NCBI GenBank assembly: GCA_003213515.1 | Contig: QCMV01000009.1 | Coordinates: 1 to 46,275, forward strand | Direction of reading: 5' to 3' | Length of the DNA: 46,275 nucleotides | Origin: Pelagibacteraceae bacterium AG-422-N09 | GTDB taxonomy: Bacteria; Pseudomonadota; Alphaproteobacteria; Pelagibacterales; AG-422-B15 | Part shown: in pieces, positions 23,165 through 25,648 of the stretch | Layout of the letters: the number at the start of each line of letters is the position of its first letter | Position numbering within the stretch: position 1 is the first letter of the stretch | Translations under genes and position numbers: made by a program | The notes under the pieces: generated by a model | Database searches by the model: none | What the model saw: the letters and a program-made list of their open reading frames with translations, nothing else | What the model was told of the DNA's origin: nothing

Positions 23165-23611
23165 TTATCTTTTAGAGAATTGGAAACGTCTACGCGCTTT
23201 ACGTCTACCATATTTTTTTCTTTCAACAATTCGAGAGTCTCTAGTAAGTAAACCTTCAGTTTTAAGGATTGGTCTTAAGTTTGGATCTAGCAAGGTTAGA
23301 GCTTTTGAAATCCCATGTCTTACAGCACCAGCCTGACCAGACATTCCACCACCGCTAACTGTAACTGTTGTGTCAACATTCATCTTTTTGTTCGTAAGTT
23401 CAAGAGGCTGATTAACTAACATGTTTAAAACAGGTCTTAAAAAGTATTTATCTACATCCTTACCGTTTATTACAATTTTTCCAGATCCATCTTTTATCCA
23501 TACTCTTGCTACAGCATTCTTTCTTTTGCCTGTTGCATAAGATCTACCTAAATTATCTAATACAGGTTTAGCTAAATTTTCTTCAGTATTGTTATTCATA
23601 GTTTCGTTCAT
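23165..23611 (-). CDS. rpsI: 30S ribosomal protein S9
   Basis: Component of the small-subunit head; its C-terminal tail reaches the P-site tRNA. 148 residues, slightly longer than the 130 of E. coli because of an N-terminal extension ([19 protein letters not shown]). Signatures are [44 protein letters not shown] and the basic end [16 protein letters not shown]. The ATG overlaps the rplM stop by 4 bases, the usual rplM-rpsI pairing. Confidence 0.97.
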
Positions 23612-24075
23612 TTAACTACATCCTGTATGTTATATGTTTTAGGATTTTGAGCCTCGTGTGGATGCTTATCTCCTACATATACTTTCATATTAGATAGCTG
23701 CTTTCTTCCTAATGGCCCTTTAGGAATCATTCTCTTAACAGCTAATCTTACAAGCCGGTCTGGAAATTTTCCCTCTAATATCTTTCTAGCATTTATGCTC
23801 TTAATACCTCCAGGATATCCAGTGTGTCTATAATAAGTTTTGTCATCGAGTTTTTTGCCCGTAAGCTTAATTTTTTCAGCATTAATTATAACAACGTTGT
23901 CACCACAATCCACATGTGGCGTATACGTGGGCTTATGCTTTCCTCTTAAAATATTTGAGACATTTGTAGCCAGTCTGCCCAAGACTATGTCTTTTGCATC
24001 TATCAAGAGCCAATCTTTCTTAATGTCCTCTTTTCTTAGAGACGCTGTTTGCTTTAGTATCTTAGATGTAGTCAT
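23608..24075 (-). CDS. rplM: 50S ribosomal protein L13
   Basis: Early-assembling large-subunit protein, 155 residues. Recognised from [44 protein letters not shown] and the motif [14 protein letters not shown]. The N-terminus is about a dozen residues longer than the usual start near WLLIDA; no other start codon lies between, so the ATG at 24075 is retained. No Shine-Dalgarno is visible. A TTGACA-17-TAATAA promoter ends only 8 bases upstream, which predicts a leaderless or nearly leaderless transcript. It heads the unit rplM, rpsI, argC, lipoprotein, hom, glpX, recJ. Confidence 0.96.
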
Positions 24076-24083
24076 ATTGTTGC

Positions 24084-24112
24084 TTATTAGAGAATACAGT
24101 AAAATATGTCAA
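24084..24112 (-). promoter_or_regulatory. rplM: rplM promoter, close to the start codon
   Basis: Minus strand: perfect -35 TTGACA (24112-24107), 17-base spacer, -10 TAATAA (24089-24084). The rplM ATG begins at 24075, 8 bases after the -10, so transcription should start 0-3 bases before the initiation codon. Confidence 0.65.
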
Positions 24113-24134
24113 CAACATATATTAATATAATAAA

Positions 24135-24163
24135 TTCATATACTTAATTAATGGTATTATAAT
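24135..24163 (+). promoter_or_regulatory. metY: metY promoter
   Basis: TTCATA (24135-24140), 17-base spacer, perfect TATAAT (24158-24163). Predicted transcription start near 24170, just before the first hairpin of the structured leader. The -35 is only partly consensus. Confidence 0.5.
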
Positions 24164-24178
24164 ACTTTTTAAATTATT

Positions 24179-24309
24179 ACACTTTACATAAGTCTTAGAG
24201 TGTTATTCAATATATTGTCGAGTTTAATACAGCTTGCGGACTTATACAGCTAAGCCATCAGCCGCACATAGTATTATGATGCGGTTTTTTTGTTTGCTGT
24301 GAAACTCGA
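24179..24309 (+). promoter_or_regulatory. Structured attenuator leader of metY (riboswitch-like, class not assigned)
   Basis: Several pairings can be drawn. Hairpin 1 is 24179-24185 with 24197-24203 (7 bp). Its loop ATAAGTC (24188-24194) is complementary to GACTTAT (24239-24245), a pseudoknot of 7 bp. Antiterminator: TGCGG (24235-24239) with CCGCA (24262-24266), plus CTTA/TAAG inside it (24241-24244/24251-24254). CCGCA alternatively pairs with TGCGG (24280-24284) to make a terminator. The pseudoknot and antiterminator exclude each other. A further long-range helix joins 24218-24225 and 24229-24233 to 24296-24300 and 24302-24309. SAM-II/SAM-V riboswitches are known before metY in marine alphaproteobacteria, but I cannot fit their core cleanly; only a GCTAA element is shared. 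Confidence 0.65.
24262..24291 (+). terminator. Intrinsic terminator in the metY leader
   Basis: CCGCA (24262-24266) plus CAT pairs with ATG-A-TGCGG (24276-24284), loop AGTATT, followed by seven T (24285-24291). It lies 43 bases before the metY ATG, so it acts as a regulated terminator rather than a gene end. Confidence 0.85.
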
Positions 24310-24334
24310 AGAAAATATAAATAGAGGTAAAAAA

Positions 24335-25648
24335 ATGGCAAAAAATAAATTTAATCCAGCAGATTCTGTAAACCCTGAAACAATTGCATTACATGGAGGT
24401 GATTACAGAAGTGACCCTTCTACAACTTCAGTAGCTGTTCCAATTTATCAAACAACTTCATATCAGTTTCATAACACTGAACATGCAGCTAACTTATTTG
24501 GAGCTAAAGATTTTGGTAATATTTATACAAGAATAATGAACCCTACAGTTGATGTTCTTGAAAAAAGAGTTGCAGCAATGGAAGGTGGTGTAGGAGCATT
24601 ATGCGTTAGTTCTGGCCAATCAGCATCTATGTTAAGCATTCAAAATTTAGTCAAAGCTGGAGATAATATTGTTAGTTCAACAGATTTATATGGTGGAACA
24701 TGGAATTTATTTGCTAACACAATGAAAGATTTAGGAATTGAAGTTAGGTTTGCTGACCCTACAGATCCTGAAAGCTTTCGAAAAATGACGGATGATAATA
24801 CACGTGCGTATTATGCTGAAACCTTACCTAATCCAAAACTAAAAGTTTTTCCAATCAGAGAAGTTGCAGATATAGGAGAAGAATACAATATACCTCTAAT
24901 TGTAGATAATACTGCAGCGCCAGTAATATGTAAGCCAATTGAGCATGGTGCAACTATCGTTGTACATTCACTTACTAAATTCATAGGCGGTCATGGCACT
25001 ACTATTGGAGGAATAATTGTTGACAGTGGGAAATTTGATTGGGCTAAAGACCCCAAAAGACAACCTATGTTAAATAACCCTGATCCAAGTTACCATGGTA
25101 TGATATGGACAGAATTTGCAAAAGCAGTTGGTCCGATCGCTTACATCGTAAGAGCTAGGTTTGTAGGGTTGAGAGACTTAGGTCCAGCTTTACCACCACA
25201 AAGTGCATTTCAAATAATTCAAGGTTTAGAAACAGTATCTTTGAGAATGGAAAAACATTGCTCTAATGCTGCAAAGGTAGCTGAGTATCTATCTAAACAT
25301 AATAAAGTTTCCCGAGTAATCTATGCTGGTCTTGATGAAGGTGAAGCTGGTGAAAGAGCAAACAAATACCTTAAGGGAGGTCATGGGGCACTCTGTGGTA
25401 TTGAACTTAAAGGCGGTAAAGCGAGTGGTGAAAAGTTCATAAATAATTTAAATATGTTCTATCATGTTGCAAATATTGGTGATGCTCGAAGCTTAGCTAT
25501 TCACCCAGCATCAACAACCCACTCTCAGCTATCAGATGATGATATGGAAGCAGCTGGAGTAAATCCTAGTTATGTGAGACTTTCGATTGGAATAGAACAT
25601 ATCGATGATATCATCGAAGACCTAAAGAATGCTTTAGACGCGGCATAA
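24335..25648 (+). CDS. metY: O-acetylhomoserine sulfhydrylase (MetY)
   Basis: PLP enzyme that makes homocysteine from O-acetylhomoserine and sulfide, the direct sulfhydrylation route to methionine. 437 residues from the ATG at 24335, which has AGAGG 7 bases upstream; the longer reading would begin inside the leader terminator and is rejected. Signatures: TIALHGGDYRSDPSTTSVAVP, NIYTRIMNPTVDVLEKRVAA, TDLYGGTWNLF, and PLP lysine K215 in VVHSLTKFIGGHGT. The length and the KDPKRQPMLNNPDPSYHG insertion favour MetY over the shorter MetZ (O-succinyl) type. Expression is probably controlled by the attenuator leader in response to a methionine-cycle metabolite. Confidence 0.93.
   Translation: MAKNKFNPADSVNPETIALHGGDYRSDPSTTSVAVPIYQTTSYQFHNTEHAANLFGAKDFGNIYTRIMNPTVDVLEKRVAAMEGGVGALCVSSGQSASMLSIQNLVKAGDNIVSSTDLYGGTWNLFANTMKDLGIEVRFADPTDPESFRKMTDDNTRAYYAETLPNPKLKVFPIREVADIGEEYNIPLIVDNTAAPVICKPIEHGATIVVHSLTKFIGGHGTTIGGIIVDSGKFDWAKDPKRQPMLNNPDPSYHGMIWTEFAKAVGPIAYIVRARFVGLRDLGPALPPQSAFQIIQGLETVSLRMEKHCSNAAKVAEYLSKHNKVSRVIYAGLDEGEAGERANKYLKGGHGALCGIELKGGKASGEKFINNLNMFYHVANIGDARSLAIHPASTTHSQLSDDDMEAAGVNPSYVRLSIGIEHIDDIIEDLKNALDAA

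Follow-up and report, generated by a model that had tools for sequence, protein, structure and literature searches.

The window analysed here is a stretch of 46,275 nucleotides of contig QCMV01000009.1 (G000:C9) from the 1.22-Mb genome of Pelagibacteraceae bacterium AG-422-N09, and our subject is the leader of its metY gene. metY (24335..25648; features lie on the plus strand unless stated) encodes a 437-residue O-acetylhomoserine sulfhydrylase / homocysteine synthase, as judged from its translation and from a match of 603 bits to NCBIfam TIGR01326 (cut-off 495.1), and is preceded by the Shine-Dalgarno sequence AGAGG (24323..24327). It diverges from an open reading frame (ORF) at 23608..24075 on the minus strand, which we take to be rplM from the gene order printed for Candidatus Pelagibacter ubique HTCC1062. 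In that genome the order is likewise rplM(-)/metY(+), and PMC2704228 lists the intergenic region with SAM-V, a riboswitch for S-adenosylmethionine (SAM). At gathering scores, five tRNAs are all the Rfam matches in the window. No SAM riboswitch was found by Rfam in the metY leader, even at an expectation value (E) of 10, and the other Rfam classes were rejected there because the searches gave no match. The initial annotation had allowed for a SAM-II or SAM-V hit; searches with the Rfam models returned no match to SAM_alpha (the SAM-II model) or SAM-V in the window, nor to any other class in the leader, a negative to be read with the weakness of SAM_alpha in this bacterial order. We propose that the metY leader is probably a riboswitch of a reduced SAM-II type that turns metY off at the level of transcription. 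The initial annotation had very probably pointed to a real regulatory RNA but drawn it wrongly.

The core of the predicted aptamer is a compact H-type pseudoknot at 24217-24255. P1 comprises three base pairs between GUC (24217..24219) and GAC (24239..24241). The loop L1 GAGUUUAA (24220..24227) has one base more than the GAUUUGA of relatives, and its UUU at 24223-24225 is taken as U10-U12 of SAM-II. P2 pairs GCUUGC (24232..24237, SAM-II 18-23) with GCUAAGC (24249..24255, SAM-II 42-48), in which U24251 corresponds to U44, the base that pairs with the SAM adenine, and G24254 stands in place of A47 (numbering and pocket list from PMC3764141). Twelve of the 13 published pocket bases are thereby present in the window: U10-U12, U20, U21, G22, C23, G42, C43, U44, A45 and A46. 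When 197 relatives were searched at the DNA level, 57 genomes had matches, in many cases only short and AT-rich ones, and the best 30 loci were used. In 30 aligned metY loci the conserved stretch is UGUCGA(G)UUURAURCAGCUUGCGGACU...ACAGCUAAGC (window 24216-24255), and not the adjoining hairpin, called hairpin 1, in which the initial annotation had placed the aptamer.

Pairing was assessed on an alignment (A4) of 43 elements, compact as well as canonical, that had been chosen within the order and the class. UUU, UUGC and GCUAA are invariant in 43/43 rows and UUGC is paired with GC-AA in all of them, GCUAA and UUGC having also served as search criteria when the rows were chosen. At the three inner P1 positions 42, 43 and 42 of the 43 rows have a standard pair, with 4 both-sided changes at the outermost, 14 at the middle and 0 at the innermost pair; in the middle 29 rows have C-G and 14 have U-A, and the replacements preserve pairing (GUC/GAC, GCC/GGC, ACC/GGU). 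Over P1 and P2 together, both-sided changes were counted in 47 cells, compared with 21.5 (sd 4.0) after column shuffling (0/500); 18 of the 47 fall in the three inner pairs and 29 in the outer three P1 columns, although the latter are unpaired in 19-22 of the 43 rows, and the column shuffles take no account of relatedness among rows. In another alignment (A3) P1 was only 73% paired because the aligner displaces the rows of the two sister genera by two columns, and A4 is the better test of P1. Hereafter f1 denotes the window's family, g1 its genus, g2 and g3 the two sister genera, and f2 a related family. The six P2 pairs are formed in 100% of 19 f1 rows and never vary, hence P2 yields no covariation. 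In the window's own genome metX, identified by its protein, is preceded by a SAM_alpha match (44.7 bits) whose P1 has 8 bp; this leader reads GCGCC-GAUUUGAGCACAGCUUGCG-GGCGC...GCAGCUAAAGAGG, and its core GAUUUGA...AGCUUGCGGGC...GCAGCUAAA is the same as that of metY. Judged from their sequences, the two elements are one core, the P1 of the metY copy being cut to GUC/GAC.

Between P2 and metY lies an intrinsic terminator, whose hairpin CCGCA...UGCGG (24262..24284; CCGCA 24262-24266 with TGCGG 24280-24284) is followed by a run of seven T (24285..24291). Its six pairs are present in 100% of lettered cells of 19 g1-g3 rows, five of which are gapped at the fifth core pair. The same CCGCA can pair with an upstream UGCGG (24235-24239) that is part of the aptamer P1/P2, and this alternative, antiterminator pairing (24235..24266) is also kept in 100% of lettered cells of 19/19 f1 leaders (12 from g1, 7 from g2/g3); it is invariant and shows no covariation. 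CTTA at 24241-24244 is complementary to TAAG at 24251-24254. All the complementarities listed in the initial annotation exist, and the OFF logic that it had inferred for metY, in which an intrinsic terminator competes with another pairing, is supported; the pairings do not, however, make up the single three-way switch into which it had joined them.

In the mechanism that we envisage, transcription would begin at or beside P1, and the 5' end of the RNA would form the minimal P1 (GUC/GAC) and the GCUUGC/GCUAAGC H-type pseudoknot, whose third strand is rich in U. Once its putative ligand, SAM or a close relative, had stabilised it, the pseudoknot would occupy the aptamer UGCGG; the free CCGCA would pair with the second UGCGG and transcription would terminate at the U run. 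When the pseudoknot is not stabilised, UGCGG would capture CCGCA first and RNA polymerase would continue into metY. The direction of this response and its kinetics are both predicted. In read-through RNA, moreover, the aptamer's 5' half could be taken up by a long-range helix (24218-24233/24296-24309), which would use the P1, L1 and P2 5' strands. The initial annotation had described 13 bp ending just before the ribosome-binding site; the helix is real, with 14 pairs counted (one G-U, and a two-base bulge), and it stops 13 nt short of the Shine-Dalgarno sequence. Among 19 g1 leaders 97.7% of its cells are paired and one pair shows a both-sided change in 2 rows, a weak signal against the control since 77/500 shuffles reach it. 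Helix and terminator coexist in computed folds. Because the Shine-Dalgarno sequence is left uncovered, the role of the helix has to be inferred, and our guess is that it locks or protects the 5' end of read-through RNA.

A sigma-70-like scan places a predicted -35 TTTACA at 24183..24188 and, after a 17-nt spacer, a predicted -10 TTCAAT at 24206..24211, from which transcription would start at about 24216-24219. When the best match in the 62 bases before P1 was taken at 38 loci, the -10 ended 4-8 nt from P1 in 31 of them, compared with a mean of 7.6 (sd 2.5, maximum 17) in 500 letter shuffles. These loci were chosen from those fetched, with g1 limited to four, g3 omitted and ties counted if in range; many are related, so that the independent cases are fewer. 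A wider scan (44 loci, 41 parsed) found the -10 ending 5-6 bases before P1 in 32 of 41 loci and elsewhere in 9, and 19 of those 32 belong to g1. There is a competing match, TTCATA-17-TATAAT at 24135-24163, which the promoter scan program listed on this strand; it listed no terminator, and its loop limit is probably the cause. We prefer TTTACA/TTCAAT because its distance to P1 is kept across families. According to Corbino et al. (PMC1273637), a promoter directly before P1 is usual for SAM-II, together with terminators and OFF logic.

The predicted -35 and spacer are overlapped by hairpin 1 (24179..24203). In the initial annotation this hairpin was the aptamer, and its loop ATAAGTC (24188-24194), which is perfectly complementary to GACTTAT at 24239-24245, was the sensor. 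By reading of the sequence the hairpin has 7 pairs, one of them G-U (24179-24185/24197-24203). On its own it is weak (z -1.5, 19/200 shuffles); the fold of 24170-24337 reaches z -2.8 (2/200 equally good), and 24216-24310, from which hairpin 1 is excluded, folds more strongly (z -3.8, 0/200). In 19 distinct g1 leaders hairpin 1 is formed in 97.0% of cells and the loop pseudoknot in 93.2%, with no both-sided change; owing to the near-invariance within g1, these percentages weigh little either way. In the seven g2/g3 leaders hairpin 1 keeps 3-6 of its 7 pairs (P 0.17-0.62 in six rows, 0.02 in L033) and the loop pseudoknot 2-5 of 7, where pairing at random would give a mean of 2.4-3.2 (smallest P 0.13). 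The covariation sought for these pairings is missing within g1 and the pairing itself is near chance beyond it, while column shuffles of 12 g1 and 7 g2/g3 rows do favour hairpin 1 and the pseudoknot (0/500 for three of five measures). We discount the shuffle signal as a clade split, because the g2/g3 rows singly pair near random. The match at 24135-24163, were it the promoter, would put hairpin 1 into the RNA, but the promoter-like match that hairpin 1 overlaps is the one whose distance to P1 is kept across families. Lying inside the predicted promoter and not kept in the sister genera, with chance-level pairing there, hairpin 1 and its loop pseudoknot were rejected as an aptamer. That they form the sensor seems to us very improbable, and hairpin 1 is probably a feature of the DNA only, absent from the RNA. 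The argument that a 45-base gap between hairpin 1 and its partner does not fit SAM-II falls away, since a different P1/P2 core is used.

Several observations weigh against a reduced SAM-II-type riboswitch. Two of the five measures on A4 lie within the shuffles (both-sided pairs 187/500; further pair types 461/500), and the best nested fold of the isolated aptamer consists of two small hairpins without P1 (z -0.5). In leader L023 (G041:C4) P1 is broken, GUC having become AUA, while the core and the terminator remain, as does the greater part of the long-range helix. SAM_alpha does not recognise the window core at E 10, even when 71 bases are searched, and it gives no match to this element at 8 related loci. 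This model is weak in the order: the bhmT SAM-II of an HTCC1062-like genome scores only 15.5 bits (E 5.3), and compact metY elements matched at the correct place score 15.3 bits (L054, E 6.1) and 22.2 bits (L155, E 0.079), with matches absent at E 10 in L050, L053 and L145. Given that score of the bhmT SAM-II, the weak Rfam scores in f2 are partly a matter of limited sensitivity. Computed without ligand, the terminator fold has -19.5 kcal/mol compared with -13.4 kcal/mol for the forced antiterminator, and therefore the latter would win only if formed first. Eight f1 metY leaders were inspected in genomes without a strong match to R1, a search model built from the compact metY core; by eye four are degenerate and four (L162, L163, L168, L169) are without the element, although two of these eight genomes (G045 and G050) carry a weak R1 match (E 0.001) whose place is unlisted. 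Finally, G24254 occupies the position of A47, which in SAM-II contacts the amino and carboxylate groups of SAM (its methionine end) and is completely conserved, as given in PMC3764141; in SAM-V, changing A50 to inosine causes a severe loss of SAM binding (PMC6061858), A50 being equated with A47 by our own alignment of CUAAA with GCUAAA.

The base that follows GCUAA separates the metY elements of f1 from the SAM_alpha elements of the same family. It is G in 27/27 f1 metY elements found (18 in g1 by script, L016 and L023, 5 in g2, 2 in g3). Of five loci that the script could not parse, L016 and L023 were read from an alignment, and L097, L121 and L139 were left out. The same base is A in 19/19 f1 SAM_alpha rows, which represent 18 genomes because G041 is counted twice (L042 and L191), and of which metX is proven by protein in the window's genome only. 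In the class it is A at each of the 28 loci that could be parsed among the 30 best for SAM_alpha and at each of the 14 that could be parsed among 15 for R1; it is A too in 4/4 g5 metY leaders and in 40/40 chosen tandem rows, among which one locus is counted twice (L036 = L211) and two readings were corrected (L202 and L215, GCTAAA in both). The g8 metY leaders are divided, with A in 3/5 and G in 2/5; L029, which has G, sits on another branch than f1 in a MetY tree in which several forks are open and L033 and L053 are not included. Most simply read, this tree would have the G state present already at the root of f1, with an independent origin in g8.

With G at position 47, C19-G47 and G18-C48 can both form, which gives P2 six pairs and a single bulged U (U44). 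The computed energy of the P2 strand duplex is -5.0 kcal/mol in the window, -2.9 in metX and -4.3 in L030, a leader with A47. An element with G47 may bind SAM differently, bind another molecule or need no ligand. An altered-ligand variant is one possibility that we entertain only tentatively: an element of SAM-II descent would, with the loss of A47, have ceased to recognise SAM by its methionine end, and would respond to a related molecule or to SAM with a different preference. This reading draws on the contrast between the 27 metY elements and the 19 SAM_alpha rows of f1, on the recurrence of the change in two g8 leaders, L029 being on a separate branch, and on the 12 pocket bases kept in the window; yet metY is an ordinary target of SAM feedback, and a G could bind the carboxylate in a different geometry. 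No firmer is the corresponding notion of a re-specified aptamer, whose metY copy would have changed the methionine-end base that the metX copy of the same genome kept; if so, metY and metX would respond to different molecules or concentrations, and the change would have arisen again in another family. In either event the absence of A47 offers a natural test of ligand discrimination by the aptamer. We regard as unlikely that the element is a relic or a ligand-independent attenuator, in which the near-continuous P2 may form unaided and give fixed termination while the element disappears from f1. The lower duplex energy of the window compared with metX would fit, an argument weakened by the -4.3 kcal/mol of L030, and so would the four leaders without the element and the four degenerate ones (L164-L167) found among element-bearing MetY lineages. 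But three genera have retained the core, the terminator and the alternative pairing, and an unneeded element would be expected to erode in a small genome. Upstream of metY in the degenerate g1 loci L164-L167 we observed a remnant GUC, with a GAC- or AGC-like partner in three of four; GCUAA is lost, no terminator was seen by eye, and complementary stretches flank ATCGAT.

A reduced SAM-II-type riboswitch remains our preferred reading, and the comparison with known classes is consistent with it. With SAM-II (RF00521 SAM_alpha; also RF01726, 'SAM-II long loop') the element shares the H-type pseudoknot, the GAUUU-type loop, the UUGC and GCUAA strands, a promoter just before P1, a terminator platform and a methionine gene. 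Covariation of P1, a SAM-II trait, is found in the 43-row alignment, and the promoter near P1 and the terminator between P2 and the ORF are present at metY. The differences lie in P1 (6-7 bp in 28 parsed SAM_alpha loci of the class and 8 in the own metX, but 3 in the window), the absence of P2a by eye, a shorter L3, the extra L1 base, G for A47, and a score below Rfam detection. We do not file the element as a member of SAM-II, because the defining base A47 is absent and SAM binding is only predicted. The initial annotation had left the choice between a divergent SAM-II/V and a new class; the former was right in kind, as a reduced SAM-II-type aptamer, whereas 'new class' is too strong. SAM-V (RF01826), found in metY leaders of f2, shares the gene and, in HTCC1062, the gene order, as well as the same kind of triplex pocket as described for SAM-V (PMC6061858). 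In SAM-V the Shine-Dalgarno sequence lies at the aptamer's 3' edge, whereas that of metY in the window begins 68 nt downstream of the final C of GCUAAGC. There was no SAM-V match at E 10 in 23900-24500, the best in the own genome being 15.1 bits (cut-off 41) and elsewhere, and none in 43 g1 genomes, own included, under stricter filters. SAM-V was rejected for the window on the lack of an RF01826 match and the distant Shine-Dalgarno.

The compact core lies upstream of metY at 30 loci in four genera. At E 0.01, R1 matched 159/397 genomes of the order, a few weak matches among which may be canonical metX elements, and 20/385 genomes of a class sample, 5 of these 20 being from the order; at E <1e-9 it matched 20/43 g1 genomes, many of which are incomplete. 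In f2, at least 52 of 102 SAM-V matches (87 genomes) have an R1 match 8-17 nt upstream, a lower bound that covers SAM-V matches only and carries no information on R1 matches elsewhere, since R1 matches were entered only from genomes with a SAM-V match. This spacing would leave no room for a terminator. As the compact element lies upstream of SAM-V, SAM-II-like and SAM-V elements can be viewed as separate modules. At f2 loci L034-L041, L050, L202 and others, metY and mmuM leaders carry a compact SAM-II-like element a short way before their SAM-V. The genome that matches HTCC1062 (G058) has the compact element at metY (L050, G058:C1:1005500-1006100) and at mmuM (L202, G058:C1:731700-733100), the product of the latter being a homocysteine-methyltransferase-type protein below curated cut-offs. 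At L155/L204 (G388:C10) the compact element, a terminator-like hairpin with T run and SAM-V (63.1 bits) stand in series before metY. Poiata et al. 2009, reportedly the SAM-V discovery paper, may mention more, such as first elements at metY and mmuM or a short P1. The available portions of PMC2704228, PMC9481103 and PMC11508383 list SAM-V alone at metY and mmuM and the tandem SAM-II/SAM-V at bhmT. In the bhmT leader of Ca. P. ubique SAM-II precedes SAM-V, and SAM-II is reported always to be followed by a terminator (PMC9481103 and PMC11508383); the likeness to the window is the SAM-II-like element and the difference is that the window has no SAM-V, while the f2 tandems differ from bhmT in the short P1 of their first element. 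Should the cryptic first elements at metY and mmuM prove real, the leaders now listed as SAM-V alone would be double sensors. Both these compact elements upstream of SAM-V and the G for A47 in f1 metY elements appear to be new. Under the proposed assignment, the hitherto unassigned control of metY in this SAR11-like family would belong to a reduced SAM-II type, and a compact SAM-II-like branch in abundant marine bacteria would seem to escape the Rfam models.

In g8, the metY leaders L029, L030, L053 and L142 have no T-run terminator by eye, and GCGGAACTTCC...GTTC and GTCGA...GACT recur near the Shine-Dalgarno sequence of the g8 leaders, which suggests that the same aptamer may control translation there. 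Further upstream in the window, a palindrome, GGTATTATAATACT (24153..24166, GGTA-6-TACY), was noticed by eye and followed by a search of the own genome. A regulon for the palindrome GGTAYNATARTACY was rejected, as sites with at most one mismatch numbered 10 forward and 6 reverse in that genome, where the reversed control gave 8 and 7. The sole other perfect site lies inside an ORF resembling what we presume to be groES. The palindrome recurs in the inspected upstream regions of f1 metY genes, even where the RNA element is lost, and in L026 it extends to a perfect palindrome of 24 bases; it is a possible operator.
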